In this document: positions 2,923 to 47,450 of the stretch, piece after piece
How the letters are laid out: each line of letters opens with the position of its first letter
How positions within the stretch are numbered: position 1 is the first letter of the stretch
Assembly: GCA_020054495.1 (NCBI GenBank)
Contig: JAHWGK010000018.1
Span: 1 to 48,774 of the forward strand
Length of the DNA: 48,774 bases
Reading direction: 5' to 3'
From: Thermoplasmata archaeon
GTDB lineage: Archaea > Thermoplasmatota > E2 > DHVEG-1
Translations under genes and position numbers: made by a program
The notes under the pieces: generated by a model
Seen by the model: the letters and a program-made list of their open reading frames with translations, nothing else
The model's database searches: none
Told to the model about the DNA's origin: nothing

Positions 2923-2935
2923 AGGAAAACAAAAA

Positions 2936-5271: not shown

Positions 5272-5275
5272 TAAT

Positions 5276-16944: not shown

Positions 16945-16945
16945 T

Positions 16946-31070: not shown

Positions 31071-32304
31071 CTTCAACACAGATGTAGCAGTTATCGGTGG
31101 TGGTCCTGCAGGCCTTGCTGCTGCTATTTCAGCATATGAGAATGGAGCAAAAAATGTCATAGTTTTAGATAGAAACAAATGGCTTGGTGGAATTTTACCT
31201 CAGTGTATTCATGATGGATTTGGAGTTGAAGAAACAGGTTCTTCTATGACTGGTCCTGAGTATGCTGAAATGTATATTAATACTGCTAAAAAACTTAGGA
31301 TAAAGTTCATGAATGAAACAATGGTGTTACAGTTCAATAAAAATCGAAAGATTATTGCTGCTAACAAGAAAGATTTACATCAAATTAATGCAAAATCTAT
31401 TGTTTTAGCTATGGGTTGTAGAGAAAAAACAAGATGGAATATTATGATACCTGGAGATAGGCCTAGTGGAATCTACACAGCAGGGGTTGCACAATCTTTC
31501 ATCAATCTTTATAACATAATGGTTGGGAAAAAAGTAGTAATCCTTGGATCTGGGGATGTAGGACTTATAATGGCACGTCGTTTAAAATTTGAAGGTGCAA
31601 AGGTCCTTGGAGTAGTTGAAATCCTACCTTATGCAAGTGGCCTCCAAAGAAATATTGTTCAATGCCTTGATGACTATGGTATTCCACTCTATTTGAACCA
31701 CACAGTTACTTACATTAAGGGAAGAGAGAGATTAGAAAGTGTAACTATTGCACAAGTCGATGAAAAAATAGATATTATTCCTGAAACAGAAAGAGAGATT
31801 AAATGTGATACATTACTTCTCTCTCTTGGCTTAATTCCTGAAAATGAATTGTCAAGAAATGTTGGAATCGAAATTGATAATGTAACTGGTGGACCAATAG
31901 TTAATCAATATTTTGAAACTTCATTATCTAGTGTTTTTGCATGTGGTAATTGTTTACAAGTTTATGATACAGTAGACGCCCTTGCAATTGATGCAAAAAA
32001 AGCAGGGGAAAATGCTGCAAAAAATACTATTAAACAAAATAAAAAAATCAACATTAAAGCTGGTAAAGGGATTAATTATGTAATACCACAGAGAATTAGT
32101 AAATCTGGAAAAATACGTTTTACTCTTAGAGTTAAAAAACCATGTGTATCTCCAACTCTTCGGGTGATTTCTGGTGATTACGAGCTTTTTAAGAAAAAAC
32201 TAAGATGGGCAAATCCTGCAAATATGGTTGGATTTGATATCGATATTTCTGATGAAACGATTAAAGCCAAGGGTGATTTGGTTGTGTTACTTGATGGCTA
32301 TTGA
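31063..32304 (+). CDS. FAD/NAD-dependent pyridine nucleotide-disulfide oxidoreductase subunit
   Basis: A 413-residue flavoprotein with two dinucleotide motifs: GGGPAGLAAAISA near residue 10 and VILGSGDVGLIMARRL near 160, plus a C-terminal FAD block (FACGNCLQVYDTVDAL). The C-terminal 80 residues are an extra basic domain. In glycerol-3-phosphate dehydrogenase operons this gene lies between the GlpA-like and DUF1667 genes and likely passes electrons to or from NAD(P). No redox-active CxxC disulfide is seen in the FAD domain, so it is not a disulfide reductase in the strict sense. Confidence 0.82.
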   Translation: MTNFNTDVAVIGGGPAGLAAAISAYENGAKNVIVLDRNKWLGGILPQCIHDGFGVEETGSSMTGPEYAEMYINTAKKLRIKFMNETMVLQFNKNRKIIAANKKDLHQINAKSIVLAMGCREKTRWNIMIPGDRPSGIYTAGVAQSFINLYNIMVGKKVVILGSGDVGLIMARRLKFEGAKVLGVVEILPYASGLQRNIVQCLDDYGIPLYLNHTVTYIKGRERLESVTIAQVDEKIDIIPETEREIKCDTLLLSLGLIPENELSRNVGIEIDNVTGGPIVNQYFETSLSSVFACGNCLQVYDTVDALAIDAKKAGENAAKNTIKQNKKINIKAGKGINYVIPQRISKSGKIRFTLRVKKPCVSPTLRVISGDYELFKKKLRWANPANMVGFDIDISDETIKAKGDLVVLLDGY

Positions 32305-32659
32305 AAAAGAAATCACTTGTATTGTTTGCCCTATCGGGTGTAAAATCTTGGTTAGAGTAGTTGAAAATCAGTTTGAGTTACTTGGAGGAAATAAGTGTAA
32401 AAGCGGAATTGATTATGCAAAAAGTGAAGCTCTTGATCCACGGAGAATGCTAACTTCTTCAGTTTTAGTAAATAATGGAGAATGGCCTCTTGTTAGCATA
32501 AAAAGTTCAAAACCTGTCCAAAAATATAAGATTTATTCTGTTTTAAAAGAAATTAAGAAAATTAAAGTGAATGCTCCAGTTAGATCTGGGCAAATAATAA
32601 TTAAAAATATTGCAGGTACTAAGATAGATATTTTAGCAACTAAATCTATAAAAAAGTAA
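32294..32659 (+). CDS. DUF1667 cysteine-rich protein
   Basis: A 121-residue protein with C9, C12 and C16 (CIVCPIGC) and a further cysteine in GGNKCKSG near 38, a likely Fe-S or zinc site. This is the DUF1667 family, the third member of GlpA-like dehydrogenase operons. The open frame begins at 32228 inside the previous gene, but family alignment and translational overlap favour ATG 32294, 11 bases before the previous stop ends. Function is unknown; an electron-transfer role is inferred from neighbours. Confidence 0.8.
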   Translation: MAIEKEITCIVCPIGCKILVRVVENQFELLGGNKCKSGIDYAKSEALDPRRMLTSSVLVNNGEWPLVSIKSSKPVQKYKIYSVLKEIKKIKVNAPVRSGQIIIKNIAGTKIDILATKSIKK

Positions 32660-32759
32660 TATTTTAACACTATTTTTTAGCAGATTTTAAATATAGCTAT
32701 AGGATACAAAACTTGCAAAACTATTAATAGTTAACACGTGTTAATTGGGAGTGACGTCT
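32660..32759 (+). promoter_or_regulatory. Promoter region of the second Hdr operon with two palindromes
   Basis: A T-run at 32674-32679 may end the preceding operon. TTTTAAATATA at about 32685-32695 is the best TATA-like element. Two perfect palindromes lie side by side, CTATTAATAG at 32721-32730 and TTAACACGTGTTAA at 32731-32744, near the predicted transcription start. GGGAG at 32747-32751 is the ribosome-binding site for ATG 32760. Confidence 0.55.
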
Positions 32760-33287
32760 ATGAGTATCACAGATTTGACTTCTATGGGGGAGCCACAGGT
32801 TGAATTAAAGAAGGAAATAAACGATAGATTGAGTAAATTACAAGATGAGGTTTCTGATTATTGTTATCAGTGTGCCAAGTGTACTTCAGGCTGCGAAGCA
32901 CATAAATTACTCGAGCTTGAACCTCATAAAATTGTTGCGCTTCTTAAGCAGGGGCTAATTGATGAAATGGTAAATTCTGATATCATTTGGACATGTATGA
33001 GTTGTTTCAAGTGCCGTGAACGGTGTCCACAAAAAATTGCGCCTGTAGAGATCTTGTTTGCATTGAAGAATCTGGCTGTTGCTGGTGGAAAACAAGTTCC
33101 TGGAAAATATACTAGTGTTTTACAGTCTGTTCTTTCTATTGGGCTTATTCAAGATGCGCAGAGTGTTACAACTAAAGATATGAAGACTAAAACAAGAGAT
33201 GATTTAGGACTTCCACCTCTTTCAAAACCAGATGATCCTGCTAAGTTTCAAGCAGGACTCATGAAAATAGCAGTTGAAAAAGTATAG
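32760..33287 (+). CDS. hdrC: Heterodisulfide reductase subunit C
   Basis: First gene of the second Hdr operon, 175 residues. Two [4Fe-4S] motifs are complete: CYQCAKCTSGCE and CMSCFKCRERCP. The first ends in CE instead of CP, as in many HdrC proteins. The in-frame TTG at 32745 was rejected because GGGAG falls between it and ATG 32760. The C-terminal tail (LGLPPLSKPDDPAKF) resembles that of the HdrC at 6470. It is followed by hdrB after 9 bases. Confidence 0.92.
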   Translation: MSITDLTSMGEPQVELKKEINDRLSKLQDEVSDYCYQCAKCTSGCEAHKLLELEPHKIVALLKQGLIDEMVNSDIIWTCMSCFKCRERCPQKIAPVEILFALKNLAVAGGKQVPGKYTSVLQSVLSIGLIQDAQSVTTKDMKTKTRDDLGLPPLSKPDDPAKFQAGLMKIAVEKV

Positions 33288-33296
33288 GGTTTGCTT

Positions 33297-34166
33297 ATGA
33301 AAAAGAAACTTGCGTTATATACTGGTTGTTTAATGTCTACGGAGCAGTACGGCTATGAGCTTTCCGTTCGAGAAAGTTTACCATTGTTAGATGTTCAACT
33401 GGTCGATATCGCGGGTTTTTCCTGTTGTGGCGAACCTTTGAAAAGTGTGAATCAGTTATTAACACTTTATCTTTCTGCACGTAATCTTGCTATAGCTGAG
33501 AAACATAACCTTGATGTGTTTGCTCCATGTGCTATGTGCCATTTGGCATTGAGTGAATGCAAACAGGTACTTCAGAATAATCCTGATATGAAAACGCGAA
33601 TTAATGAGATGCTGGCAGCTGAGGAGTTAACATTTGAAGGTAATGGTGAAATTGTGCATACAGTTGATTTGTTACATGATCATATTGGTATCGAAGAAAT
33701 TGCTAAACACGTGAAGAAACCACTTAAGGGTTTAAAGTTTGCAACTCATTATGGTTGTCATCTTATACGACCTAGTGAGATCGGTCGTCCTGATGATTCC
33801 GAGCATCCTGTAAAAATAGAGGCAATTATTTCAGTGCTTGGTGCTGAAACAGCAAAATATCCTGAAAAACTTGATTGTTGTGGCGGGATTTTGCAGATTA
33901 ATCTTGATGAATCTGCGTTGACTAAATCAGGTCAGAAGTTAAAGGCGGTTCAGAATCAGGGTTTTGATGGTTTAGTCGATGTGTGTCCATGGTGTCATAA
34001 AATGTTTGATGCAAGACAAGTTAAGGCTGGTGAGACAGTAGCAGCGAAGCTTAATGTTCCAGTGTTTTATTTGACGCAGTTACTTGGTTTGGCATTTGGT
34101 GTTAAGAAAGAGAAACTCGGGTTAGATTTTAATATTAGCCCTGTGGACAAGCTAGAGATTGGTTAG
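33297..34166 (+). CDS. hdrB: Heterodisulfide reductase subunit B
   Basis: Catalytic subunit with two full CCG repeats: YTGC, SCCGEP, CAMC and HYGCHLIRPSE, DCCGG, CPWC. All ligands for two noncubane clusters are present in 289 residues. ATG 33297 is preferred over the in-frame TTG 33291, although neither has a strong ribosome-binding site, so coupling to the upstream hdrC is likely. It is the only hdrB in this operon, which otherwise encodes several HdrA modules and three HdrC modules. Confidence 0.93.
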   Translation: MKKKLALYTGCLMSTEQYGYELSVRESLPLLDVQLVDIAGFSCCGEPLKSVNQLLTLYLSARNLAIAEKHNLDVFAPCAMCHLALSECKQVLQNNPDMKTRINEMLAAEELTFEGNGEIVHTVDLLHDHIGIEEIAKHVKKPLKGLKFATHYGCHLIRPSEIGRPDDSEHPVKIEAIISVLGAETAKYPEKLDCCGGILQINLDESALTKSGQKLKAVQNQGFDGLVDVCPWCHKMFDARQVKAGETVAAKLNVPVFYLTQLLGLAFGVKKEKLGLDFNISPVDKLEIG

Positions 34167-34188
34167 GTGTTTGAAAGGGGATTTGTGT

Positions 34189-36147
34189 ATGCGTCGGATT
34201 GGTGTTTTTGTTTGTCATTGCGGTATTAACATTGCGCAGAACGTGGATGTTGAAGCATTAACCAAGTATGCCAGTAAACTTGATAGTGTGGTAGTGAGTA
34301 AAAGTTACAAGTATATGTGTTCTGATGTGGGTGCTACATTAATTAAAGACTCGATTAAAAAACATGAGCTTGATGGTGTTGTTATCGCTTGTTGTTCTCC
34401 TCGTATGCATGAGCATACCTTTCGTGAGGTTGTCAGCGATGGCGGGGTAAACCAGTATCGTTTGGAGATTGCAAATATCCGTGAGCAGTGTTCATGGGCA
34501 CATAGTGATCGGGAGAAGGCAACTAAGAAAGCAAAGTTTTTGGTACGTAGCGCTGTAGCAAAGGCAAAATTGTTAGAATCATTGGAGACATCAACACTTG
34601 AGGTAAATCATGATGCATTGGTGATCGGTGCTGGTATCGCTGGTATTCAAGCATCATTGGATCTAGCAAATGATGGATTTAAGGTTTATCTAGTGGAACG
34701 TGAGCCAAGCATTGGTGGTAGGATGGCTCAGCTTGATAAAACGTTTCCAACACTTGATTGTTCATCATGTATTCTTACTCCTAAGATGATGGAGGTGGCA
34801 AATCATCCCAATGTTGAACTGTTAACGTATTCAGAGGTAACTGGTATTGAAGGAAGTATTGGAAATTATACAGTGAAAATCAAAAAGAAACCGCGATATG
34901 TTGATGTAGAGAAATGTACTGGTTGCGGTGATTGTGCTACTGCCTGCAGGTTGAAAGATAGAATCAATAGCGAGTTTAATATGAGTAGGGGGAAACGGGG
35001 TGCTGCATATATGCCATTTCCACAGGCAGTACCGTTGAAGTATACAATTGATGCTGAGCATTGTTTGTTTCTTACGCGTGGGAAATGCGGTGACAAACCT
35101 GCTTGCCGTGAGGCATGTGATCAAAAAGCGATTAATTTTGATCAGAAAGAAGAAATCGTTGAATTAAAAGTTGGTGCAATCGTTGTTACAACAGGATATG
35201 ATTTGTTGGATCCCACCAGCATGTATGAGTATGGATATGCAAATTCCCCTGATGTGATTACAACACTTGAGCTTGAGCGATTGATTAGTTCATCAGGACC
35301 TACTCTGGGTGAGATACTACGTCCATCTGACCAGCAGAAACCAAAGAGTATAACATTTATCTTATGTGTTGGTAGTCGTGATGAAACAGAATGTACTTGG
35401 TGTTGCCGTATCGGCTGTATGAGTGCATTGAAACATGTATACCTCCTAAGGGAGAAGCTAGGTGACGACGTTGAAATTAATGTATGCTATACTGATGTTC
35501 GTTCATATGGGAAGGGTTACGAGGAATTTTATCGTACGGTGCGTGGGATGAAAACAAACATGTTCCGTGGTCGTCCTTCTGAAGTACAAAACATGGGGGA
35601 TCATCAGAAAATTGATATTTTTGATACTACAACAAATAAATTATTTGAAATAACTACAGATATGGTTGTGCTTGTTCCAGCACTATTACCCAGAGCAGAC
35701 GCAGGAGATTTCGCTAGGTTGCTTCATTTGACGTTGAGTGGTGACGGGTTCTTCTTAGAGGCACATCCAAAGCTTAGGCCGATGGATACATTTGTAAATG
35801 GAATTTTTATTGCAGGATGCTGTCAAGGGCCAAAGGATATTCAAGACACAGTATCACAGGCGAGTGGTGCAGCATCCCGGGTAGCAACTATTCTTTCTAA
35901 GGAAGAGTTAGAGATTGACCCGTTAATCGCTGCAGTTGATGCGGAAGTATGCACCGGATGCGGTATCTGTGTAGAAGTCTGTCCATATGAAGCACGAGTG
36001 CTCAATGAAAAGACAAAAATCGCTGAAGTGAATGATGCGTTGTGTACAGGATGTGGTGCATGTATTGCTGCCTGTCCAAGTAATGCATCTATTCATAAGA
36101 ATTTTACAAAAAAACAACTGCTCGATATGGTTGATGACATAATATGA
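34189..36147 (+). CDS. hdrA: Heterodisulfide reductase subunit A, single-module
   Basis: A 652-residue HdrA of canonical size: N-terminal domain ([27 protein letters not shown]), FAD domain ([13 protein letters not shown] near 150), insertion ferredoxin (CTGCGDC and [15 protein letters not shown]), and C-terminal ferredoxin with two clusters ([24 protein letters not shown]). An unusual point is the cluster motif after CVGSRD: instead of C-x3-CC it reads C405-C406-R-I-G409-C410, so one of the usual ligands is glycine and a neighbouring cysteine is gained. GAAAGGGGA at 34173-34181 fixes ATG 34189; the frame is open from 34159. Confidence 0.93.
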
Positions 36148-36157
36148 GATAAAAATT

Positions 36158-37039
36158 ATGACTAACGAGAAAAATACTTTAGTAACTGATGCTAAAAAAC
36201 ATGGATCTGTCCTTGTGGTAGGTGGCGGAATTTCAGGTATTCAATCATCGCTTGATCTGGCTGACGCAGGGTTTAAAGTTTATATTTTGGAAGAATCACC
36301 AGCGATTGGTGGCGTGATGGCTCAGCTTGATAAAACATTTCCAACAAATGATTGTTCAATGTGTATTATGTCACCTAAGCTTGTTGATGTAGGTCGCCAT
36401 CCAAATATCGAATTAATTACATATTCTGAACTTAAAGAAGTTGCAGGCAAAGCAGGTAATTTTAAAGTCAAAATACTTAAGAAACCCAGGTATGTAGATG
36501 GAGAAAAGTGTACCGGTTGTGGGATTTGTATAGAAAATTGCCCGGTATTGTTACAACCACAGATTCCTAAAAAACCAAAAGAAGCACCTTCTGTGAGAGA
36601 TCAGGAATATATTGATAAGCTGATTTCCAAATATTCTTATCAGGAAGGACCATTGATTCAAATTATGTTGGAAGCAAATGAGAAATATAGATACCTTCCA
36701 AGGGATGTAATGGAATATCTTTCTTCTAAACTTGATATCTCACTTAGCACAATTTATAGAGTAGCTACTTTTTATAAAGCATTCAGTCTTGAGCCTAGGG
36801 GCAAATATCATATAAAAGTGTGCTTAGGTACTGCCTGTCACGTCAGAGGTGCCAGAAATATTGTTGACAAAGTTAAAGATACAATAGGAGATGCCGATGA
36901 AGGTTTCTTCTCGTTAGAAACCGTTAACTGTCTTGGTGCTTGTGCCCTTGGTCCTATCATGGTGGTGAACGAGAAAGTTTACGGACACATGACTGTTGAT
37001 AAAGTGGATGAAATCATAAAGCCTTTGGAGGATGAATAA
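36158..37039 (+). CDS. N-terminal half of an HdrA FAD domain fused to a NuoE/HydC-like [2Fe-2S] domain
   Basis: Residues 1-133 are the start of an HdrA FAD domain ([39 protein letters not shown]) up to the first insertion-ferredoxin cluster (C118, C121, C124, C128, then PVLLQ). HdrA then stops, and after a proline-lysine linker residues about 145-293 form a complete NuoE/HydC domain: [12 protein letters not shown] helix region and a thioredoxin-like [2Fe-2S] site with C222, C227, C258 and C262. NuoE-type subunits partner NuoF in NADH oxidation. The other half of the HdrA domain continues in the gene at 38905. It is joined to nuoF without a gap. Confidence 0.88.
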
Positions 37040-38908
37040 ATGAAAAGATTGTCAAACTCCAAAGAATTGGAGAAACTGAGAAAGGCTATTCGGGATGGAA
37101 GAGATCCTGATAAACCCATAGTTACTATTTGTGGTGGAACAGGGTGTAAAGCTTCAGGATGTAAACACATAATCGAGGCGTTTAAAAAGGAGATTATAAA
37201 GCAGAACCTTCAGGAAAAAGTAGATATTCGTATCACTGGATGTCAAGGGTTCTGTGAAAAAGGCCCTATCGTTGTCATATATCCAAGTAAGATTTTTTAT
37301 CCAATGGTGAAAGCAGAGGATGTTTCTAGAATTATTTCAGAAACCGTGGTAAAAAATAAGGTCATAAAAGAACTGCTCTATGTTGCCCCTAGCTCAGGTG
37401 AAAGAATAACTTATGAGGATGAGATACCTTTTTATAAAAAACAGACTAGAACAATTTTTGGCAGTAACAATCATATCGATCCAAAAAATGTCGAGGACTA
37501 TATTGCCATAGGTGGATACTCAGCCCTTGCAAAGGTTCTTACCGGTATGAAACCACAAGATGTTATAGATGAGGTAAAAAAATCAAGTCTTAGGGGGCGA
37601 GGTGGCGGTGGTTTTCCCACTGGTCAAAAATGGGAATCCAGCAGTAAAACAAAAGGAAAACGAAAATATGTCCTATGTAATGCTGATGAAGGTGACCCTG
37701 GTGCATATATGGATAGAAGTATCCTTGAGGGAAACTCCCACAGTGTGATCGAAGGTATGATCATCGGTGCTTTTGCAATAGGATCTAATCATGGTTACAT
37801 ATATGTTCGTGCTGAATATCCACTCGCAGTTGAACATTTTTCAGTTGCATTAGATCAAGCTAGAGAACTCGGGTTGCTGGGAAAAAATATACTTGGCTCC
37901 GGTTTTGATTTTGACATCATAGTCTATCAGGGAGGTGGTGCTTTCGTATGTGGTGAATCATCGGCTCTTCTTCAATCTATTGAAGGTAAAGTCGGTGAAC
38001 CAAGAGCAAAGCATATCCATGCAACTGAACGTGGTTTATGGGGGTATCCTACGGTTTTAAACAATGTTGAAACATGGGCGAATATCCCATTGATTATTAA
38101 TAAAGGGGCTAAATGGTATGCTAGTATTGGAACTGAGAAAAGCAAAGGCACTAAGATATTTTCTCTTGTCGGTAAGATAAACAATACGGGTCTAGTAGAG
38201 GTGCCAATGGGTATGTCTATCAGAGAAATCGTGTTTGATATCGGAGGGGGAATCCCTAATAATAAAAAATTTAAAGCAATCCAAACAGGAGGGCCATCTG
38301 GTGGATGCATACCTGAATCCTTGATCGATATGCCTATTGATTTTGATGAACTGACGCATGCGGGTTCCATGATGGGTTCTGGTGGTATGATTGTGATGGA
38401 TGAGGACACATGCATGGTTGATGTTGCCAAATACTTTGTGGAATTCAATCTCGATGAATCCTGTGGTAAATGTTCGTCATGTAGAGAGGGCAACGCTCGG
38501 ATGTTAGAAATATTGGAAGATATCTGTGCAGGGAACGGCAGTGAAAACTCTATACCATTGCTTGAAGAGTTATGTGAATATGTTAAGGAGACTTCACTCT
38601 GTGGTCTTGGAAAAACTGCTCCTAATCCAGTGTTAACGACTTTGAAGTATTTTAAAGACGAGTATATTGCCCATATACAAAATAAAGAATGTCCTGCTAA
38701 AGTGTGTAAGGCACTAATATTTTATGAGATCAACTCGAAGGATTGTATTGGGTGTGGCATATGTGCTAAAAAATGTCCAGTAAATGCTATATCTGGTGAA
38801 AAGAAAAAACCACATGTTATAGATAAAGATATATGCACGAAATGTGGAACATGTATTGCCGTGTGTAAAGTCAATGCTGTACGAGTCAAAACGGGAGGAA
38901 AAAAGTGA
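37040..38908 (+). CDS. nuoF: NuoF/HydB-like NADH-binding flavoprotein with ferredoxin domains
   Basis: A 622-residue diaphorase subunit. The N-terminal thioredoxin-like [2Fe-2S] domain has C31, C36, C41 and CQGFC at 68-72. The FMN/NADH domain carries GRGGGGFPTGQKWE (about 183-196) and CNADEGDPGAYMDR. A [4Fe-4S] motif CGKCSSCREG lies near 474, and two C-terminal ferredoxin clusters follow (CIGCGICAKKCP and CTKCGTCIAVCK). This layout is that of HydB in Thermotoga-type bifurcating hydrogenase rather than plain NuoF. With NuoE before it and a NuoG/HydA-like domain after it, it completes a NADH input/output module. GGAG at 37027-37030 supports the start. Confidence 0.93.
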   Translation: MKRLSNSKELEKLRKAIRDGRDPDKPIVTICGGTGCKASGCKHIIEAFKKEIIKQNLQEKVDIRITGCQGFCEKGPIVVIYPSKIFYPMVKAEDVSRIISETVVKNKVIKELLYVAPSSGERITYEDEIPFYKKQTRTIFGSNNHIDPKNVEDYIAIGGYSALAKVLTGMKPQDVIDEVKKSSLRGRGGGGFPTGQKWESSSKTKGKRKYVLCNADEGDPGAYMDRSILEGNSHSVIEGMIIGAFAIGSNHGYIYVRAEYPLAVEHFSVALDQARELGLLGKNILGSGFDFDIIVYQGGGAFVCGESSALLQSIEGKVGEPRAKHIHATERGLWGYPTVLNNVETWANIPLIINKGAKWYASIGTEKSKGTKIFSLVGKINNTGLVEVPMGMSIREIVFDIGGGIPNNKKFKAIQTGGPSGGCIPESLIDMPIDFDELTHAGSMMGSGGMIVMDEDTCMVDVAKYFVEFNLDESCGKCSSCREGNARMLEILEDICAGNGSENSIPLLEELCEYVKETSLCGLGKTAPNPVLTTLKYFKDEYIAHIQNKECPAKVCKALIFYEINSKDCIGCGICAKKCPVNAISGEKKKPHVIDKDICTKCGTCIAVCKVNAVRVKTGGKK

Positions 38909-41900
38909 AGATGGCTACAATAGAGATCGATGGGACATGCTTTGAGATTGATGAAGGAAAGACGGTTCTTGAAGCTGCGATTGAAAATAACATTGACATA
39001 CCTACATTGTGCCATCACGAAGCTCTGCCTCCATATGGGGCCTGCCGGCTATGTGTAGTTGAAATTGTTTATGATGGCTGGTCCAAACTAGCTACTTCAT
39101 GTACTTTACCTGTAAAAGATGGGTTGAAGGTTCTGACTAAATCTAAAAGGGTGATTAAAAGCCGGAAGATGACCATTGAACTATTATTATCTCGTTGTCC
39201 TACTGATGATCTATTAATTAAACTTGCAGAAGAATATGATGTTAAAAAACTAAGATTTAGTAAAGGGACTGATAAATGCATTTTATGTGGTCTTTGTGTG
39301 AGATTGTGCGAGTGCATGGGGCCAGGTGTAATTAATTTTATAAATCGTGCCTCCGATCGAAAAGTAAAACCACCTTTTGAAGAGCTTTCTGATATATGTC
39401 AGACTTGTGGTGCCTGTGCATTTATTTGTCCTACTGGTGCAATTGATCTTAAGACTATTTCAAAGAATAGGCCAATACCAATTCTTGATGAATTTGATAT
39501 GGGTCTAAGAAAACGATCGGTAATGCATATATCCTATCCTCAAGCAGTTCCAAACTGGCCTGTTATTGATTCTGATCATTGTGTCCATTTACAGAGTGGT
39601 CAATGCGGTATCTGTAAGGATTCTTGTGACGCAGATGCTATAGATTTTGAACAAAAAGAACAAGAATTAGAAATTGATGTGGGCGCGGTTATCTTATCCC
39701 CTGGTTTTGATGAGTATACATTACCAAAAGGAGATAGTTATGGATATAAGGTGTATCCTAATGTGTTGACAAGTATAGAGTTTGAACGAGTGCTTTCTGC
39801 ATCTGGTCCTTATCAAGGACATATTAAACGTGTTTCCGATGGTAAATGCCCTAAGAAGATTGCATGGTTACAATGTGTTGGCTCTCGTGATGAAAGTTGC
39901 GATAGAAAATATTGCTCTTCAGTTTGTTGTATGTATGCAACAAAAGAAGCAGTGATTGCAAAAGAACACAATCCAGATATTGAATCTCATATTTATTTCA
40001 TGGATATGCGTTCATTTGGTAAGGATTTTGATAAATACTTTGCCCGGGCTCAGGATAACTATGGAGTTGTGTATAGACGATGTCGTATACCGCGGGTGGA
40101 ACAGGATCGGAAGACAAAGAATCTCATTATTCGCTATGTTGGTGAGGATGGGAATCTGAAGAAAGAAACGTATGATATGGTTGTGTTATCTGTTGGATTG
40201 CAACCATGTAAAGCGCTAGGGGACCTGAGTAAAATTCTTGATGTTAATCTGAATGAGTATGGTTTTGTTGAAACGGATCCATTTTCACAAGTTACTACCT
40301 CGCATGAAGGTATCTATGCATCAGGGACAGTTACTGAGCCAAAAGATATTCCTGAGAGTGTTACACAGGCATCTGCTGCTGCAGCTGAAGCAGCAAAATA
40401 CATCTTTGAGGCTCGTGGTACAGAGATTACTGAAAAAATATATCCTGAAGAAAAACAAGTAATCACTGAGTTCCCACGGGTTGGTGTATTTGTCTGCCAT
40501 TGTGGTATCAATATTGCTGGCGTTGTTGATGTGAAACAAGTAGTTGAATATGCAAAGACGTTGCCGTATGTTGTACATTCTGATGATAGTATTTTTACCT
40601 GTTCACAGGATTCTCAGGAGAAAATTAAGGAGAAAATACGGGAGTTTGATTTGAATCGTGTGGTAATTGCATCATGTACACCTCGGACGCATGAATCTTT
40701 GTTTCAGGATACCTTGCGTGAGGCAGGTCTTAATCCGCATCTTTTTGAAATGGCAAACATCCGTGATCAGAACTCATGGGTACATAAAAATGATCCTCGA
40801 AGTGCGACGGAGAAAGCGATTGATGCTGTGAAAATGGCAGTGTCAAAAGCATTGGATTTATATCCCGTTCATCATCTGAAAATCCCAGTTGTTCATAGTG
40901 CATTGGTCATAGGCGGTGGTATTTCAGGTATGCAATCTGCATTGTCTATCGCCGACCAGGGATATGATGTGTTTCTTGTTGAACGAGAGTCAGTGCTTGG
41001 TGGTCATCTGAGAGAAATCTATCTTGGCGTTAACGGTGAGCAGCCGCAGGAGCTATTAAAGAAGACCATTGAACAGGTGAAAAAGCATTCGAAAATTCAG
41101 GTGTTTACAAATACTACAGTTAAGGATGTCTCAGGTTATGTTGGTAATTTTAAGACATTGTTGACGTCGAAGGATAAGAGCGTACCTGTGGAAATAGAGC
41201 ATGGTATCATAGTAGTAGCAACTGGCGGATTGCCATATGAACCTGTTGAGTACCAGTATGCAAAGAGTGATGATATTGTTACACAGACCGAGTTTGAAAA
41301 AGACTTGTTTGATGGTAAGTCTTATCTGAAGAAACTTCGTGAGATGGTGATGATACAATGTGTGGGTTCTAGGAATGATGAGCATCCATATTGTAGTCGA
41401 GTATGTTGTTCTCAGGCGTTGAAGAATGCATTACGATTCAAAGAGATTAACCCAGATGCTGCTGTGTATATTTTATATCGAGATATTCGCACATATGGTT
41501 TCCGTGAAGATACTTTATATCAGAAGGCAAGGAAGAAAGGTATTCTGTTTGTGCGATATGATGAAGATGATGAACCAAAGGTTTCCCTTAACAAGGGGAA
41601 AATAACTGTGAAAATCCTGGAACGAGTACTTGGGAGAGAGCTACATCTGCATCCTGATAAATTGGTGTTGAGCACGGGAATTATTCCCCAGGATAATGTG
41701 ACGTTGGCTCAACAATTAAAAGTTCCGCTTAATGAAGATAATTTTTATGCTGAGGCTCATGTTAAGTTGCGTCCTATTGATTTCTCAGCAGATGGTATCT
41801 TCCTGTGTGGTCTTGCGCATTCACCACGTTTTATAGAGGAATCAATATTGCAGGCGAAGGCTACTGCTGCTCGGGCGGCAACAATACTATCTAAGGAATA

Positions 41901-42144
41901 TTTGGAGACAAAGGGAAATATTGCTTATGTGACATCGCGTAACTGTGCAGGATGTAAACTATGCCTTGAAGTTTGTCCATATGATGCAATAACTTTTGAT
42001 GAAGAAAAGAAAATTGTTGTAGTAAATGAAATTTTATGTCAGGGTTGTGGTGCGTGTTCATCGATATGTCCAAGTGGTGTATCGCAGCAGAATACGTTTA
42101 CAAAACGACAGATTCTGTCAATGGTTGATGCTTGTTTGGAGTGA
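38905..42144 (+). CDS. hdrA: NuoG/HydA-like ferredoxin domain fused to a C-terminal HdrA part plus a full HdrA module
   Basis: Residues 1-185 resemble the NuoG/HydA N-terminus: [2Fe-2S] at C36, C47, C50, C66, then two [4Fe-4S] motifs (C125-C135, C165-C175). The His-Cys3 site usual between them is degenerate (LLLSRCPTDD, no histidine). HdrA resumes near 198 with SYPQAVPN, insertion-ferredoxin cluster 2, and CVGSRD...CSSVCC, completing the half begun at 36158. A second HdrA follows (CHCGIN near 530, FAD motif near 668, CVGSRN...CSRVCC, two C-terminal ferredoxin clusters near 1014 and 1046). In this module the conserved IRDQCSWVH reads N623 instead of cysteine. GTG 38905 has ideal spacing from GGGAGG; ATG 38911 is the alternative. 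1079 residues. Confidence 0.9.
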   Translation: MKMATIEIDGTCFEIDEGKTVLEAAIENNIDIPTLCHHEALPPYGACRLCVVEIVYDGWSKLATSCTLPVKDGLKVLTKSKRVIKSRKMTIELLLSRCPTDDLLIKLAEEYDVKKLRFSKGTDKCILCGLCVRLCECMGPGVINFINRASDRKVKPPFEELSDICQTCGACAFICPTGAIDLKTISKNRPIPILDEFDMGLRKRSVMHISYPQAVPNWPVIDSDHCVHLQSGQCGICKDSCDADAIDFEQKEQELEIDVGAVILSPGFDEYTLPKGDSYGYKVYPNVLTSIEFERVLSASGPYQGHIKRVSDGKCPKKIAWLQCVGSRDESCDRKYCSSVCCMYATKEAVIAKEHNPDIESHIYFMDMRSFGKDFDKYFARAQDNYGVVYRRCRIPRVEQDRKTKNLIIRYVGEDGNLKKETYDMVVLSVGLQPCKALGDLSKILDVNLNEYGFVETDPFSQVTTSHEGIYASGTVTEPKDIPESVTQASAAAAEAAKYIFEARGTEITEKIYPEEKQVITEFPRVGVFVCHCGINIAGVVDVKQVVEYAKTLPYVVHSDDSIFTCSQDSQEKIKEKIREFDLNRVVIASCTPRTHESLFQDTLREAGLNPHLFEMANIRDQNSWVHKNDPRSATEKAIDAVKMAVSKALDLYPVHHLKIPVVHSALVIGGGISGMQSALSIADQGYDVFLVERESVLGGHLREIYLGVNGEQPQELLKKTIEQVKKHSKIQVFTNTTVKDVSGYVGNFKTLLTSKDKSVPVEIEHGIIVVATGGLPYEPVEYQYAKSDDIVTQTEFEKDLFDGKSYLKKLREMVMIQCVGSRNDEHPYCSRVCCSQALKNALRFKEINPDAAVYILYRDIRTYGFREDTLYQKARKKGILFVRYDEDDEPKVSLNKGKITVKILERVLGRELHLHPDKLVLSTGIIPQDNVTLAQQLKVPLNEDNFYAEAHVKLRPIDFSADGIFLCGLAHSPRFIEESILQAKATAARAATILSKEYLETKGNIAYVTSRNCAGCKLCLEVCPYDAITFDEEKKIVVVNEILCQGCGACSSICPSGVSQQNTFTKRQILSMVDACLE

Positions 42145-42151
42145 TAAAAAA

Positions 42152-42601
42152 ATGGTAGAAGGAACAAAAGAATCAAAAAAGAGTGAATTTGAACCAAAGA
42201 TTGTAGGTTTTCTCTGCAACTGGTGTAGTTATGCAGGTGCGGATCTTGCAGGTACTAGTCGTATTCAGTATCCGCCAAATGTTAGAATTATCCGCGTAAT
42301 GTGTTCAGGAGCTGTGGATTCTGTGTATATATTACGTGCGTTACTCGAGGGTGCTGATGGTGTGTTTATCGGTGGTTGCCATCCGGGTGACTGTCATTAT
42401 CTTGATGGGAATTATAAGGCTCGACGGCGAATTGTTTTACTTCGTGATATTTTAGATGCATTGGGTTTGGAACAAGAACGAGTATGGATTCGTTGGATTT
42501 CAGCATCTGAAGGACAGCAGTTTGCAGAAACAATGAAGGAGATGACAGAGGCGATAAGAAAACTTGGTCCTAATCCTATTGCTAAACAATGGGATATATG
42601 A
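42152..42601 (+). CDS. mvhD: MvhD-like [2Fe-2S] linking subunit
   Basis: Close paralogue of the MvhD at 3425, with the same CNWCSYAGADLAGTSR, MCSGAVD and GCHPGDCHY motifs; 149 residues. The open frame starts far upstream inside the HdrA gene, but ATG 42152, 8 bases after that gene's stop, begins just before the conserved EFEPKIVGFLCNWC. No hydrogenase genes are in this operon, so its partner is more likely the FrhB/FdhB-like subunit encoded next, handing electrons to one of the HdrA modules. Confidence 0.93.
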   Translation: MVEGTKESKKSEFEPKIVGFLCNWCSYAGADLAGTSRIQYPPNVRIIRVMCSGAVDSVYILRALLEGADGVFIGGCHPGDCHYLDGNYKARRRIVLLRDILDALGLEQERVWIRWISASEGQQFAETMKEMTEAIRKLGPNPIAKQWDI

Positions 42602-42617
42602 GGTATGGTGTTGAGAT

Positions 42618-43736
42618 ATGACTGATAAAGTTTTGAAGGTTAAAAATGGGGATGTTACAGGTTCAGTTAATGAGTTTTTGAAAGAACTGTTGAAATCAGG
42701 GAAGATTCATGCATTGTTAGTTATGCAGGAGGTTCCATCGAAAAAAATATCATTTCCGGTGTTAATTTCTGATCCTGATCAGTTACACACTGATGTTTTT
42801 GCTCCTGTTCTGCCGGTGTCAACAGCATCGATAGTTTCAAAGATGACAAAGTTTCAGGCAGCAAAAAAACCAGTTGGTGTGGTGATGCGGCCATGTCAGA
42901 TTCGTGCATTAGTTGAACTTGTGAAATTGAATCAGGCGGACTTGGAAAATATCATTATTATTGGTGTGGATTGTTTGGGTACGTTTCCGTTGAAGACATA
43001 TACTGATTTTCCTGAGAAAAAAACACCTACGCAGTTTATACTTGATGCATTTAGAAACAAGAGTGAGAACGCTGAGAAATATTTGCGTTCCGCGTGTTTT
43101 GTATGTAAAGATTCTGTTCCAGTTAATGCTGATATTGTTATTGGGCTGTATGGTGTTGATGTTGGTAAAGAGATCCTAGTTGAGGTTTGTACTGATGTTG
43201 GTAAAAAACTGGTTGATGGCATAAAGCTTGACAGCAAGAATGTGAAAGATCGTGAGAGTGCAGTAAAGGCTGTTCGTAAGGATAAGACAAAGAAGCGTGA
43301 TGATTTTGTTAAAAATAATGATTCGTTGAAAGGGATTAAGGCGTTATCTGAGTTTTTTGACAAGTGTGTGAACTGTCATAACTGTATGAACGCATGTCCG
43401 ATTTGTTATTGTAAAGAATGTTTATTTGACTCTTGTGTTTTTGATGCTGAGGCATATAAGTATCTTAGGAAAGCTGAGAGTAAGGGTTTGTTTAAGATGC
43501 CTGATGATTCACTTCTTTTCCATATTACACGTATGAATCATATGATTTTGTCATGTGTAGAATGTGGATTGTGTGAGCAAGCATGCCCAAGTGATATTCC
43601 ACTAATGGATGTGTTTATTCCTGCTGCTGAGAGTGCACAAAAAGAGTTTGATTATTATCCTGGGAAAAATCTTGAGGAGAAAATTCCAATGGTTGTCTAC
43701 CGTGAGGATGAATATGTGGAGGTAGGAGAAAAATAG
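42618..43736 (+). CDS. FrhB/FdhB-like flavin and Fe-S subunit (F420- or formate-linked oxidoreductase beta)
   Basis: A 372-residue member of the coenzyme F420 hydrogenase/dehydrogenase beta family. RPCQIRALVELVKL matches the RPCEIRAFVELVKL block of FrhB/FdhB. Cysteine motifs CVNCHNCMNACPICYC (from about 250) and CVECGLCEQACP (from about 313) bind [4Fe-4S] clusters. In Hdr operons such subunits allow F420H2 or formate dehydrogenase to deliver electrons through MvhD to HdrA. No formate dehydrogenase alpha subunit is nearby, which favours F420 (or another deazaflavin/flavin donor), but this is inference. Confidence 0.85.
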   Translation: MTDKVLKVKNGDVTGSVNEFLKELLKSGKIHALLVMQEVPSKKISFPVLISDPDQLHTDVFAPVLPVSTASIVSKMTKFQAAKKPVGVVMRPCQIRALVELVKLNQADLENIIIIGVDCLGTFPLKTYTDFPEKKTPTQFILDAFRNKSENAEKYLRSACFVCKDSVPVNADIVIGLYGVDVGKEILVEVCTDVGKKLVDGIKLDSKNVKDRESAVKAVRKDKTKKRDDFVKNNDSLKGIKALSEFFDKCVNCHNCMNACPICYCKECLFDSCVFDAEAYKYLRKAESKGLFKMPDDSLLFHITRMNHMILSCVECGLCEQACPSDIPLMDVFIPAAESAQKEFDYYPGKNLEEKIPMVVYREDEYVEVGEK

Positions 43737-43737
43737 T

Positions 43738-44397
43738 ATGGATGTGATTGATTCCCGGAAGGTTGACCCAAATTTCAAATTCCAAATTGCTAAGGAGGAT
43801 GGTGGAGAAGGTATTTTGAAATGTTTTGCATGTGGGTCTTGTACTGCTCGTTGTCCTGAGATGGATGTAAAACTAGAGTGGAATCCACGTGTGGTTATCC
43901 GTAAAGCGCTGTTGGGCCTGAAAGAAGAGGTTTTGTCAAGCGAGTTTATCTGGATATGTAGTGCGCATTATCGGTGTCTTGAGAAATGTCCGCAGGGTGT
44001 GGATATCAAAGGAGTTATGAATGCAGTTCGTAACGCTCGCCTTTTAGAGGAGCAAACTGAAGATGTGACTGGTAAGAAGGCTAAGAAATATCTTGATCTT
44101 GAGTTTAAATACAAGATTGTTCCGGATGATGCAGGTAAGGATTTGTATGAGTGTTTTTCGTGTGGAACGTGTACAGCAGGATGTCCCGAGCGAGAACTTG
44201 ACCCGTTGTATTCACCTCGTAAGGTTATCAAAAATGTGCTTTTGGGGATGAAAGATTCAGTGTTTTCTAATAAGTTTGTTGAGATTTGTTCAACGCATCA
44301 TAGATGTTTTACTCAGTGTCCACAGGGTGTCGAGATTCCAAAGTTGATGAATGCAATAAAAAATATTGCAGAACGAGAAGGATATAGGAGACCGTAG
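43738..44397 (+). CDS. hdrC: Tandem HdrC (two HdrC modules in one chain) with Cys-to-His changes
   Basis: A 219-residue protein built of two HdrC units, residues about 1-105 and 118-219, each starting with a FKFQI/FKYKI segment. The first cluster of each unit is canonical (C29-C39 and C139-C149). The second cluster of each is altered in the same way: C74-x2-H77-x2-C80-x3-C84 and C184-x2-H187-x2-C190-x3-C194, where normal HdrC has cysteine at the histidine position (compare CSTCYTC in the HdrC at 6470). Two lie in one chain, so the change predates or accompanied the duplication. No hdrB is adjacent; it sits between the FrhB-like gene and a double hdrA. Confidence 0.9.
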   Translation: MDVIDSRKVDPNFKFQIAKEDGGEGILKCFACGSCTARCPEMDVKLEWNPRVVIRKALLGLKEEVLSSEFIWICSAHYRCLEKCPQGVDIKGVMNAVRNARLLEEQTEDVTGKKAKKYLDLEFKYKIVPDDAGKDLYECFSCGTCTAGCPERELDPLYSPRKVIKNVLLGMKDSVFSNKFVEICSTHHRCFTQCPQGVEIPKLMNAIKNIAEREGYRRP

Positions 44398-44402
44398 GGG
44401 TT

Positions 44403-47400
44403 ATGGTGAAGAAATCTGAAAAGATTGGGGCAGTTGCTGTTATCGGCGGTGGGATTACTGGTGTTCAGTCGGCACTTGATCTTGCAGATATGGGTTTTAA
44501 GGTTTATCTAGTGGAGAAGTCACCGGCGATTGGCGGGGTGATGGCACAACTTGATAAAACATTTCCAACAAATGATTGCTCAATGTGTATTTTGTCCCCT
44601 AAGCTTGTAGATTGTTCACGTCATGCAAATATCGAGTTGCTTACGAATACTGAGGTGCAGAAGATCGAGGGAAAGCCTGGTAATTTTGTTGTTAAAGCAT
44701 TGAAAAAACCTCGATATGTTGATATTGATAAATGCACGTCATGTGGTTCATGTGAAGAGGTTTGTCCAATTAAGCTGCCAAATTTGTTTGAACAGGGATT
44801 GTCTGATCGGAAAGCGATTTATAGGTTATATCCGCAGGCGATTCCAAATGCGTATGTAATTGATAAAGAAGGCGATGGTAAGCATCGTGGCTGTGTTGAC
44901 TGTATGAAATGTGTGGAGGCATGTACAGTTGGTGCAATTAACCATGATGAGAAACCAAAGAACCTTAAATTGAATGTTGGTGCAGTGATTGTTGCAGCTG
45001 GTTCTCAGCCGTTTAACCCAGTTATTAAGCCTGAGCTCGGATATAAAAAATATAAGAATGTGTTGACAAGTATAGAGTTTGAACGAGTGCTTTCTGCTTC
45101 TGGACCGTTTGAGGGAAAGATTATACGTCCAAGTGATAAGAAGTCACCGAAGAAGATTGCATGGGTTCATTGTGTGGGTTCTCGTGATAAATCTGTAGAA
45201 CACGAGTATTGTTCATCGATGTGCTGTATGTATACAGCAAAAGAAGCAGTGATTGCAAAAGAACATGATGCAGATGTTGAGCCAACTGTGTTTTATATTG
45301 ATATTCGTTCATTCGGTAAGGATTTTGATAAATATATTGATCGAGCGAAGAAGGAACACGGGTTACGATATGTTCGTTCAAGGATTTCTGAAATTTTGGA
45401 GGATACAAAGACAAAGAATCTTATTATTAGATATGAGGATGACTCTGGTGAATTAAAAGAGGAGACATTTAACCTTGTTGTATTATCTATTGGTCTTTGT
45501 ATTGTTGAGGAGCAGCGTAATGAATTAATTGAACGGTTAGGTTTTGAAACAAATGAGTTTGGTTTTGTCTATACAAGTCCTGATGATCCTGTTGTGTTAC
45601 GACCTGGGATTTTTGTCGCTGGTTCTTTTCTAGAGCCACAGGCAATTCCTGAGAGTGTGATGCAGGCTTCTGCTGCTGCGGCAAATGCTGCTGCGTTGCT
45701 AAAGGATGTTCGTGGTACTCTTGTAAAAGAAAAACAGTACCCTGTGGAACGTGATGTTTCTGGTGAGAAGCCACAGATTGGTGTGTTTGTCTGTCATTGT
45801 GGTATTAATATAGGTGGGTATGTTGACGTTCCTGCAGTTGTCAAGTTTGCGGAATCTCTTGATGACGTAGCATATGTTGAGGCGAATTTGTATACATGTT
45901 CTGAGGATACACAAAAGAAAATAGTCGATGCAATCAAGAAACATAATTTGAATAGAATCATTGTAGCGGCATGTACACCACGGACACATGAACCATTGTT
46001 TCAGAAGAGTCTTCGTGAGGCAGGGCTTAATCCATATCTTTTTGAGATGACAAATATCCGTGAGCAGTGTTCATGGGTTCATATGGATAAACCAAAAGAT
46101 GCTACAGAGAAGGCAAAAAAGTTAATTGCAATGACCGTGGCAAAAACCCGTTTTCTACAGCCGATACAAGAAGCAGAAATCCCAGTTACACAAAAGGCAT
46201 TGGTTATAGGTGGCGGGATTGCTGGTATGACCTCTGCTTTGTCATTAGCAGATCAAGGCTATGAAACTGCATTAGTTGAAAAAGAATCGATGCTTGGCGG
46301 CTATTTGAATAAGGTGTATTATACAGTGGAGGGTATTGACATTAGTCAGTTGCTCAGGGAGACGACAGAGAAGGTTCAGAAACATCATCTCATCAAGGTG
46401 TATACAAGTTCATCATTGGAATCTTTGAATGGTTATGTGGGGAGCTATGAGTCTGATATTAAAACATCGAAAGGAATAGTAAAGTTTAGTCATGGCGTGG
46501 TTGTTGTTACAGTTGGCGCTGATGAATATAAGCCAAATTCATATCTTTATGGAAAGAACTCCCAAGCCATGACGCAGTCAGAACTAGAAAAAAAATTGAG
46601 TGAAAGCCAGCCCGAAGATATCCAGGACGGTGAGACTTTTGTGATGATACAATGTGTCGAATCACGAGATGAAAAAAGACCTTATTGTAGTCGAATTTGT
46701 TGTATGCAAGCAGTGAAGAACGCAATTAAGATCAAGGAGTTGAATCCACGGGCTGAAGTTTTTGTGTTGTATCGTGATTTAATGACCTATGGATTTAAGG
46801 AAAAATTTTATAAGGATGCTCGTGAGACGGGTGTGATGTTTCTCCAGTATGATGTGGAGAAGAAACCAGAAGTGATCTTGAATGATCGGTTGCTTGTGAA
46901 AACCTATGAGCCAATGCTTGATAAAAAGTTGGAGATACCCACGGATCATCTAGTGTTGTCAACAGGTCTTGATCCTAATAAATCAAATCAAGATATTGGG
47001 CAGATGCTAAAAGTGCCTGTGAATGATGATGGGTTCTTTTTAGAGGCTCATGTGAAGCTACGGCCAGTTGATTTTTCCACTCGCGGGGTGTTTGTTGCAG
47101 GGAGCTGCCATACGCCAAAGTTTATTGATGAATCTATTTATCAAGCACAAGCAGCAGCTGCACGTGCAGCGACGATTCTTGCACAACCAAAACTTACAGC
47201 AGAACCAAATATCGCAGTGGTTAACGAAGATTTGTGTAGCGGATGTAAGATGTGTATTTCAATCTGTCCTTATAATGCAATTGATTCGGTTGAAGAAACC
47301 ATTAATGGTAAACAGGTGATTCATGCAAAGGTGAACGAAGGGTTATGTCAGGGTTGTGGCGCATGTGTTGGTTCTTGTTCATCTGGTGCGATGCAACAAC

Positions 47401-47450
47401 GTGGGTTTAAGGACAAACAGTTAATTCCAATGGTTGATGAAACAGTCTAA
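44403..47450 (+). CDS. hdrA: Double HdrA (two HdrA modules fused, no insert)
   Basis: A 1015-residue protein. Module 1 lacks the HdrA N-terminal domain and starts with its FAD motif (GGGITGVQSALDL near 16), insertion-ferredoxin clusters CTSCGSCEEVCP (about 111) and CVDCMKCVEAC (about 164), and CVGSRD...CSSMCC. Module 2 starts with VCHCGIN (near 463), FAD motif near 600, CVESRD...CSRICC, and two C-terminal ferredoxin clusters (CSGCKMC near 945; CQGCGACVGSCS near 981, ending CS instead of CP). It is the uninterrupted version of the architecture seen at 7833 and across 36158-42144, which makes it the reference for locating their inserts. Last gene of the operon. Confidence 0.93.
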   Translation: MVKKSEKIGAVAVIGGGITGVQSALDLADMGFKVYLVEKSPAIGGVMAQLDKTFPTNDCSMCILSPKLVDCSRHANIELLTNTEVQKIEGKPGNFVVKALKKPRYVDIDKCTSCGSCEEVCPIKLPNLFEQGLSDRKAIYRLYPQAIPNAYVIDKEGDGKHRGCVDCMKCVEACTVGAINHDEKPKNLKLNVGAVIVAAGSQPFNPVIKPELGYKKYKNVLTSIEFERVLSASGPFEGKIIRPSDKKSPKKIAWVHCVGSRDKSVEHEYCSSMCCMYTAKEAVIAKEHDADVEPTVFYIDIRSFGKDFDKYIDRAKKEHGLRYVRSRISEILEDTKTKNLIIRYEDDSGELKEETFNLVVLSIGLCIVEEQRNELIERLGFETNEFGFVYTSPDDPVVLRPGIFVAGSFLEPQAIPESVMQASAAAANAAALLKDVRGTLVKEKQYPVERDVSGEKPQIGVFVCHCGINIGGYVDVPAVVKFAESLDDVAYVEANLYTCSEDTQKKIVDAIKKHNLNRIIVAACTPRTHEPLFQKSLREAGLNPYLFEMTNIREQCSWVHMDKPKDATEKAKKLIAMTVAKTRFLQPIQEAEIPVTQKALVIGGGIAGMTSALSLADQGYETALVEKESMLGGYLNKVYYTVEGIDISQLLRETTEKVQKHHLIKVYTSSSLESLNGYVGSYESDIKTSKGIVKFSHGVVVVTVGADEYKPNSYLYGKNSQAMTQSELEKKLSESQPEDIQDGETFVMIQCVESRDEKRPYCSRICCMQAVKNAIKIKELNPRAEVFVLYRDLMTYGFKEKFYKDARETGVMFLQYDVEKKPEVILNDRLLVKTYEPMLDKKLEIPTDHLVLSTGLDPNKSNQDIGQMLKVPVNDDGFFLEAHVKLRPVDFSTRGVFVAGSCHTPKFIDESIYQAQAAAARAATILAQPKLTAEPNIAVVNEDLCSGCKMCISICPYNAIDSVEETINGKQVIHAKVNEGLCQGCGACVGSCSSGAMQQRGFKDKQLIPMVDETV

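Follow-up and report, generated by a model that had tools for sequence, protein, structure and literature searches.

We analysed a contig of 48,774 nucleotides from a Thermoplasmata archaeon (JAHWGK010000018.1, assembly GCA_020054495.1), hereafter the window, in which an HdrA gene is divided around genes of the NuoEFG type. Three consecutive genes on the + strand, P1 (36158..37039), P2 (37040..38908) and P3 (38905..42144), encode proteins of 293, 622 and 1079 residues; their coordinates and frames agreed with those given by an initial annotation made from the sequence alone, and all three frames are open, with no stops in the window. P1 is a fusion of an HdrA N-half (residues 13-133, 36194..36556), which carries the GxGxxG motif for flavin adenine dinucleotide (FAD), Cys69 (equivalent to Cys197 of the solved HdrA, 5ODC) and the first CxxCxxCxxxC motif of the inserted ferredoxin, with a thioredoxin-like [2Fe-2S] domain of the NuoE/HydC/BfuC type (residues 151-293, 36608..37036). 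P2 is a NuoF/HydB/BfuB protein. P3 starts with a NuoG/BfuA N-terminus, also similar to HydA (residues 1-185, 38905..39459), containing one [2Fe-2S] and two [4Fe-4S] motifs. It continues with an HdrA C-half (residues 196-515, 39490..40449) bearing the second inserted-ferredoxin motif, Glu294 (E356), Lys347 (K409) and a CxnCx3CC cluster, and ends with a second HdrA module (residues 516-1066, 40450..42102) composed of an N-terminal iron-sulfur (Fe-S) domain, a FAD domain without inserted ferredoxin and a C-terminal ferredoxin domain.

The initial annotation had proposed that the FAD domain of HdrA is split around a NuoE-NuoF-NuoG module, and this was borne out by profile matches and by tiling on the HdrA chain 5ODC_A. 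Residues 13-133 of P1 correspond to positions 137-258 of the NCBIfam HdrA2 model (model length 777), and P3 from residue 186 corresponds to positions 250-561, after which comes the second HdrA module. The NuoE match takes up residues 152-290 of P1. On 5ODC_A, P1 aligns with 146-259 and P3 takes up the chain again from 254; a few residues overlap and no HdrA residue is lost at the joint. The HdrA part missing from P1 was found in P3 as had been claimed, but it does not start at the motif SYPQAVPN that had been indicated; homology begins some 15 residues earlier, at EFDMGL (residue 196) or slightly before. The joint is located between the two Cys motifs of the HdrA inserted ferredoxin domain. 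Three NuoEFG genes thus lie between the HdrA halves, each half being carried on a different subunit (NuoE and NuoG), and HdrA is not one continuous polypeptide here but two chains. P1 and P3 jointly hold the FAD motif, E356, K409, Cys197 and the eight Cys of the inserted ferredoxin. As to the spacing around the joint, all 19 aligned P3 proteins have 24-28 residues from the last NuoG cluster Cys to the glycine of EFDxG and exactly 25 residues from this glycine to the next HdrA Cys. In addition, P1 has Cys197 and lacks the N-terminal Fe-S domain, and the second HdrA module of P3 has this domain and shows, by eye, no Cys197. Such a complementarity of Cys197 and N-terminal domain between the two modules is known in fused HdrAs (PMC9012536), and P1 would therefore also give a ligand to the N-terminal cluster of P3.

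The same split order was found in other genomes, as the initial annotation had suggested looking for, and at least 38 distinct systems ordered HdrA-N, NuoE, NuoF, NuoG-N, HdrA-C were obtained. When P1 was searched against 389 genomes of Thermoplasmatota, full-length matches to the fusion were recovered in 16 (E <= 6.8e-95), the best HdrA-only match outside the window's genome having an E value of 1.4e-62. In one of them (G052) the fusion lies on a single contig of 1.8 Mb. The NuoG-HdrA partner was found in 15 of these 16 genomes; in the other (G059) the contig stops within NuoF. Within the window's class, where flanks were read for part of the NuoF matches, at least 7 of 80 genomes have the split state. 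A scan of GTDB contigs gave 583 stretches among the matches listed, of which 80 loci were kept, and all taxon counts from it are lower bounds. Among these listed matches, split systems were present in bacteria (Fibrobacterota, Spirochaetales/Spirochaetes, Zixibacteria, KSB1, Stahlbacteria, Desulfobacterales/Desulfobacteraceae/Deltaproteobacteria and Sulfotelmatobacter of the Acidobacteriota) and in archaea (Altiarchaeales and the uncultured archaeon G060). The overall range, with taxa as the records label them, includes Thermoplasmatota, Asgard archaea, Altiarchaeales and at least seven bacterial phyla. The NuoG-HdrA junction was also spanned in 14 of 297 genomes from the phylum of a Desulfobacterales locus and in 3 of 227 from the phylum of a Lokiarchaeota record; eight of these 17 genomes were fetched, and all eight contain split systems.

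The window and 102 loci together offered 141 HdrA-N places, overlapping loci included: 31 were split, 20 had a GltD-type insert, 83 were intact and 7 were without the C part. By sequence, 30 of the split, 18 of the insert and 80 of the intact places were distinct, one genome being present twice among the split ones, and the 30 together with the eight fetched genomes make the 38 systems. The HdrA-C part of L112 and L151 is truncated where the locus or contig ends, and L112 also has 2.9 kb of other genes between NuoF and NuoG-HdrA. A match to MvhD was located 3' of P3 in 23 of these 38 loci; several of the rest stop too early to show whether there is one. In six of the 38 loci, of the Desulfobacterales type (L109, L123, L129, L151, L159 and L187), HdrA-N is encoded by a free mini-gene (about 125-130 residues), which ends a few residues past the first ferredoxin motif, CxxCxxCxxxCP; the N-half of HdrA is thus retained even when unfused.

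Conservation was examined in the 30 distinct split HdrAs. The FAD-binding GxGxxG, Cys194, the eight inserted-ferredoxin Cys and E356 were each present in 30/30, K409 in 28/28 and the four-Cys cluster of the FAD domain in 29/29 of the rows with a letter there. At Cys197, 25 of the 30 have Cys and five have an in-frame stop (L109, L123, L129, L151 and L159), which is TGA in the four codons read; such a stop was also observed in 18 distinct intact HdrA-N. As HdrA selenoproteins are known (PMC9723677), the stop at this position probably encodes selenocysteine. The two halves also vary together. In Mantel tests on 28 systems the distance matrices of the HdrA halves correlated with r 0.685 (reached in 0/5000 permutations), and those of the halves with NuoF gave r 0.278 and 0.275 (9/5000 and 16/5000 permutations); with NuoF controlled for, the halves still showed a partial correlation of 0.66 (0/5000). 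These values indicate that the halves, 2.9 kb apart and on different proteins, evolve far more jointly than either does with the NuoF between them.

The NuoEFG part also retains its cofactor sites. P2 comprises a thioredoxin-like [2Fe-2S] domain, a 51K domain for flavin mononucleotide (FMN), an NADH_4Fe-4S domain and two Fer4 domains, and its residues 28-614 align with BfuB of the bifurcating NiFe-hydrogenase (7t2r_B). In Bfu enzymes the B2 ligands Cys438, Cys/Thr476, His525, Cys531 and Cys536 (A. mobile numbering) have been tied to the bifurcating members (PMC9304861). All five positions are occupied in P2 (Cys458, Cys496, His545, Cys551 and Cys556, window numbering). Across 33 split NuoF rows, Cys458 and His545 are present in all, Cys551 and Cys556 in 32 each, and position 496 is Cys in 16, Thr in 12 and another residue in 5. 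The B1 cluster is kept in 33/33 rows, and both C-terminal [4Fe-4S] motifs (B3 and B4) in the 31/31 rows reaching them; B1, B3, B4 and the N-terminal [2Fe-2S] (B5) of BfuB are all present in P2 of the window. The four Cys of the NuoE [2Fe-2S] cluster C1 (Cys222, 227, 258 and 262) are invariant in 24/24 aligned P1, and the [2Fe-2S] and two [4Fe-4S] motifs of the NuoG part are so in 19/19 aligned P3. No His-Cys cluster motif HxxxCxxC was seen by eye in the NuoG part of P3, as in BfuA of clade 45, to which the Bam enzymes belong. Both bifurcation sites, the HdrA FAD and the NuoF core, thus retain their sequence marks.

The origin of the split was studied with quick IQ-TREE searches, in which support is given only by the Shimodaira-Hasegawa-like approximate likelihood ratio test (SH-aLRT). 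The HdrA tree held 124 of 134 paired places, identical rows and those with a short half having been dropped. On it the split state had to change 12 times, and branches with SH-aLRT >=95 force no fewer than 8 of these changes. Type I HdrAs (G355 with L106; L108 with L113), those of Desulfobacterales and several type II lineages were separately split, and GltD-insert and split rows interleave. In G355 (L091 5192-12572) the split type I HdrA is placed in the tree close to the intact HdrA gene that lies immediately upstream of it, as expected of a local duplicate. In the NuoF tree, where we scored 25 rows close to the edge of a contig or locus as unsplit and L093, L114 and L115 (whose downstream half is missing or lies beyond the contig) as split, the split rows were more clustered, with 5 changes, and the window grouped with G021, G116 and G355 (SH-aLRT 99). 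One-clade tests with the approximately unbiased (AU) test, for which subsets of 97 and 75 rows were used on HdrA, gave p-values that are optimistic because the tested groups were chosen after the trees had been seen. These tests rejected one common origin of the split on both genes: neither all split HdrAs (difference in log-likelihood, lnL, -686, p-AU 0.0002, 97 rows) nor all split NuoFs (lnL -153, p 0.0001) form one clade. Likewise, the NuoF clade of the window (window, G021, G116 and G355) was rejected as an HdrA clade (lnL -369, p 0.0001, 75 rows), and the split systems that share the HdrA clade of the window were rejected as a NuoF clade (lnL -245, p 1e-48). The simplest reading of this conflict between the HdrA and NuoF trees is that different HdrAs received the cassette at one and the same joint, or that the halves flanking it were exchanged together.

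P1, P2 and P3 belong to a cluster of ten genes at 32745-47450, all on the + strand and with gaps or overlaps of <=16 bases (taking 42152 as the MvhD start). The partners of HdrA are present at 32745-34166, as an HdrC-like gene (32745..33287) and an HdrB-like gene with CCG domains (33291..34166), followed by an intact type I HdrA immediately 5' of P1 (34159..36147). Downstream of P3 there are an MvhD/VhuD-like gene (42152..42601, start inferred), a FrhB/FdhB-C domain protein with 4Fe-4S that may be an F420 subunit (42618..43736), a double HdrC-like protein (43738..44397) and an intact fused double (type II) HdrA (44403..47450), which offers a natural unsplit comparison. In the window and its close relatives the cluster is completed by HdrB, HdrC, MvhD and the FrhB-like protein.

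With regard to the heterodisulfide of coenzymes M and B (CoM-S-S-CoB), the acceptor of HdrABC, McrA was not found in the source genome, which is 90% complete. This argues against a methanogenic role, which was set aside. As to other substrates, 19 proteins near nine other split loci and one of the window were scanned. Near the window's nearest relative, G021, there were an aldehyde ferredoxin oxidoreductase (L027 1272-3104, 1.8 kb upstream of the split cluster), a homoserine dehydrogenase and an aminotransferase. The neighbourhood of G052 has carboxylase genes, that of G365 a thiolase and an enoyl-CoA hydratase, and that of G060 a malic enzyme, and signalling genes were found near L109, L112, L113 and L116; the neighbours scanned at G083 and L108 gave no useful match. 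Elsewhere in the window, DAO/BFD, Pyr_redox and DUF1667 genes stand 5' of the Hdr cluster (29604-32659), which resemble a glycerol-3-phosphate-type dehydrogenase; this lead was dropped because no match to them was obtained in the G021 stretch. There are also two NiFe-hydrogenase-like gene sets (443-7836 and 12918-17428). One adjoins a FAD-linked oxidase, which we take to be lactate-dehydrogenase-like, and CCG genes with HdrC and HdrB, and the other has a HycI protease. The source genome (G000) also contains an unfused NuoE-NuoF followed by two tandem NuoG-like small subunits (C204, L030 9778-13764).

Both the module composition and the interruption of HdrA have precedents, so that the statement of the initial annotation that no described enzyme has this layout was too strong as regards composition. 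The Bam-Bfu class II benzoyl-CoA reductase with BamB-I likewise has NuoEFG-like BfuABC together with an HdrA module, and two bifurcation sites have been proposed for it; it also has a tungsten benzoyl-CoA reductase, and the available part of the source mentions no split of HdrA (PMC9304861). No tungsten BamBC benzoyl-CoA reductase genes were found in 32745-47450. Bam-Bfu has an MvhD-like partner, BamF. Type III HdrA, or HdrA9-11, likewise carries between its two ferredoxin motifs a GltD/NfnB-like module that oxidises reduced nicotinamide adenine dinucleotide or its phosphate, NAD(P)H (PMC12054007, PMC9012536), but that insert is in frame in one chain, whereas in the split system three genes lie between the motifs and HdrA is on two chains. 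It has been argued that in GltD-insert HdrA the ferredoxin port is blocked and reused for NADH (PMC12054007). No GltD domain was matched in P1-P3, which are thus not of type III. The window has its own type III copy, a 1653-residue HdrA at 7833-12794 with a GltD/NfnB-type insert and a second HdrA module, which joins types II and III and has close relatives in G013 and G018; its GltD domain enters some 25-30 residues downstream of the position at which the split system has its joint. GltD-type domains were also observed in frame after NuoF, in L101, L186 and L189 inside the split-HdrA cluster, where they would add a further flavin site, and in the window's genome (C88, L031 4132-7290).

Other known systems share fewer of these elements. 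In the Bfu Type 1 enzymes (FeFe-, Nfn-, Fdh- and F420-Bfu) a head is fused to the NuoG-like subunit and the BfuBC core is kept, as here, but neither an HdrA head on BfuA nor a head common with NuoE is listed in the available part of PMC9304861. HdrABC-MvhADG (5ODC) has the same FAD domain and inserted and C-terminal ferredoxins, and HdrB, HdrC and MvhD adjoin in the window too, but its HdrA is a single chain, free ferredoxin uses the inserted domain and MvhAG acts as donor. Type II fused double HdrA, HdrA3/4 and MetFV-HdrABC-MvhD have the same complementarity of Cys197 and N-terminal domain (PMC9012536), but are unsplit and have no NuoEFG inside. For Desulfotignum phosphitoxidans, hdrA, mvhD and nuoEFG have been placed in one putative unit, with no split or fusion mentioned in the accessible text (PMC4046663). 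In our set, the bacterial loci L125, L126, L130, L134, L155, L157 and L167 have an unsplit type II HdrA with NuoE and NuoF as separate genes after it (and NuoG, if the locus extends that far). Full-text literature searches found no description of a split HdrA common to NuoE and NuoG, and the accessible portions of PMC9304861, PMC9012536, PMC12054007, PMC11237513, PMC9723677, PMC11543930, PMC5736913, PMC4046663, PMC11406978, PMC5861303 and PMC10553843 contain none of a split HdrA.

We consider it likely, judging from these sequence features, that P1, P2 and P3 form one redox complex in which the HdrA flavin domain is built in trans and NuoEFG is wired to it. The proposal that HdrA takes the place of the HydA head is supported, in that HdrA occupies the position held by HydA or another head in other Bfu enzymes and one HdrA unit is shared by two NuoEFG subunits. 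The flavin domain would be assembled from the tails carried by NuoE (in P1) and NuoG (in P3), and NuoF would dock on both. Given the usual topology of 2[4Fe-4S] ferredoxins, each cluster of the inserted ferredoxin would be ligated by both chains, one contributing three Cys and the other a single Cys, which would put the joint within the low-potential exit of HdrA. Since NuoE and NuoG are attached at that exit, we infer a direct wiring between the low-potential arm of HdrA and NuoG. The exit would no longer serve free ferredoxin, and electrons would pass through the NuoG clusters to or from the NuoF-NuoE core, where the FMN, B2 and [2Fe-2S] centres would be the place at which NAD(H) and ferredoxin react. 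On its other sides the HdrA FAD would face HdrBC, as the high-potential partner for some disulfide or thiol, and would also be joined to the second HdrA module with MvhD, and perhaps to F420 through the FrhB-like subunit. The two coupling steps would be in series and could run either way. In evolutionary terms the NuoEFG cassette would be a plug-in that has repeatedly landed between the two motifs, like the GltD insert. A broader proposal, which we hold tentatively and with somewhat less than even confidence, is that the inserted ferredoxin of HdrA is a socket for whole NADH-oxidising machines in archaea and bacteria, either an in-frame GltD domain or a three-gene NuoEFG cassette that divides HdrA into two proteins. 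The latter would give a tandem enzyme in which the low-potential arm of one bifurcation site serves as mid-potential input to a second site of another family, and the cassette would move between HdrAs as a unit.

Several observations weigh against the proposed complex or limit the case for it. The FAD head of Nfn-Bfu is held to be non-bifurcating (PMC9304861), so the HdrA FAD may only conduct here. The residues kept in split HdrA are kept in nearly all intact HdrAs as well, and their retention shows a whole site and not a special one. The B5 ligands vary, the first and second Cys being present in only 19/33 and 21/33 split NuoF rows and the last two in 31/33 and 33/33, partly because the [2Fe-2S] domain is a separate gene in L110, where a thioredoxin-like protein of 127 residues precedes NuoF, and perhaps in L112, L114 and L115. 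The initial annotation had named homologues with the two pieces in different complexes as a refutation; among the homologues seen, none has the halves in separate clusters, but L114 (Cloacimonadota) and L115 (Sedimentisphaerales) have P1 and NuoF with no NuoG-HdrA in the remaining 3.2 and 1.9 kb of contig. Single-chain AlphaFold models were weak, with a predicted local distance difference test (pLDDT) of 69.5 for P1 and 64.0 for P3 (13 and 11 sequences). Low-pLDDT regions include the partner-facing parts of P1 and P3, which the shallow alignment explains equally, and these models did not decide the assembly of P1-P3; the best Foldseek matches were HydC/NuoE for the P1 model and HdrA for the P3 model. 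Finally, the genes beyond the Hdr core differ among the scanned loci, and the context therefore gives no substrate.

The most serious alternative, to which we give a chance not far below even, accepts that the complex assembles but confines bifurcation to the NuoF/NuoE core and makes the HdrA FAD a plain conductor to HdrBC. Type 1 Bfu enzymes have other heads on BfuA and the FAD of T. sibiricus Nfn-Bfu is held not to be a bifurcation site (PMC9304861); moreover, the low-potential exit of HdrA would be occupied, as argued for GltD-insert HdrA (PMC12054007). E356 and K409, which have been tied to bifurcation at the HdrA FAD (PMC12054007), are nevertheless kept in every split HdrA with a letter there, a point that does not discriminate because they are also kept in nearly all intact ones. 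The reverse, that NuoEFG is a non-bifurcating NADH diaphorase feeding an HdrA that alone bifurcates, is unlikely. Some NuoF homologues are non-bifurcating (PMC9304861, PMC5861303) and the B5 variation would fit them, but the non-bifurcating homologues are described as lacking B2-B5 (PMC9304861), and here the B2 His is kept in 33/33 rows and the C-terminal 4Fe-4S in 31/31.

Explanations without a joint HdrA fared worse. The N-half on NuoE could be a vestige of a neutral operon accident, P3 working alone or with an adjacent intact HdrA, and intact HdrAs do flank the split one in the window (34159-36147 and 44403-47450), as the closeness of split and upstream HdrAs in G355 would also suit; yet all 30 split systems keep FAD and cluster residues in both halves wherever there is a letter (five with the stop at Cys197), the halves co-vary beyond the NuoF between them, and six free HdrA-N mini-genes and an occurrence in both archaea and bacteria make this very improbable. 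Decay of the split HdrA gene was rejected on the homologues and on residue conservation. A rearranged assembly at these junctions, which the initial annotation had listed as a possible refutation, or a frameshift has a negligible probability: the source genome is fragmented (248 contigs), but the arrangement recurs in at least 38 distinct systems from many assemblies, one of them the single 1.8 Mb contig of G052, and the frames in the window are open, so that an assembly error was refuted by the homologues.

From these sequence comparisons, the split of HdrA looks like a genuine and repeatedly used solution for joining two energy-coupling machines in a single unit. A flavin domain divided over two subunits, with clusters that would bridge the chains, is an unusual architecture for a redox complex, and its occurrence in both archaea and bacteria, together with the conflict between the trees, suggests that plug-in evolution took place repeatedly at one joint. 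The covalent linkage fixes the place where the NuoEFG core and HdrA meet, whereas in the Bam-type enzymes both modules are known but the electrical order is only proposed, and the split system thereby makes tandem bifurcation directly testable.

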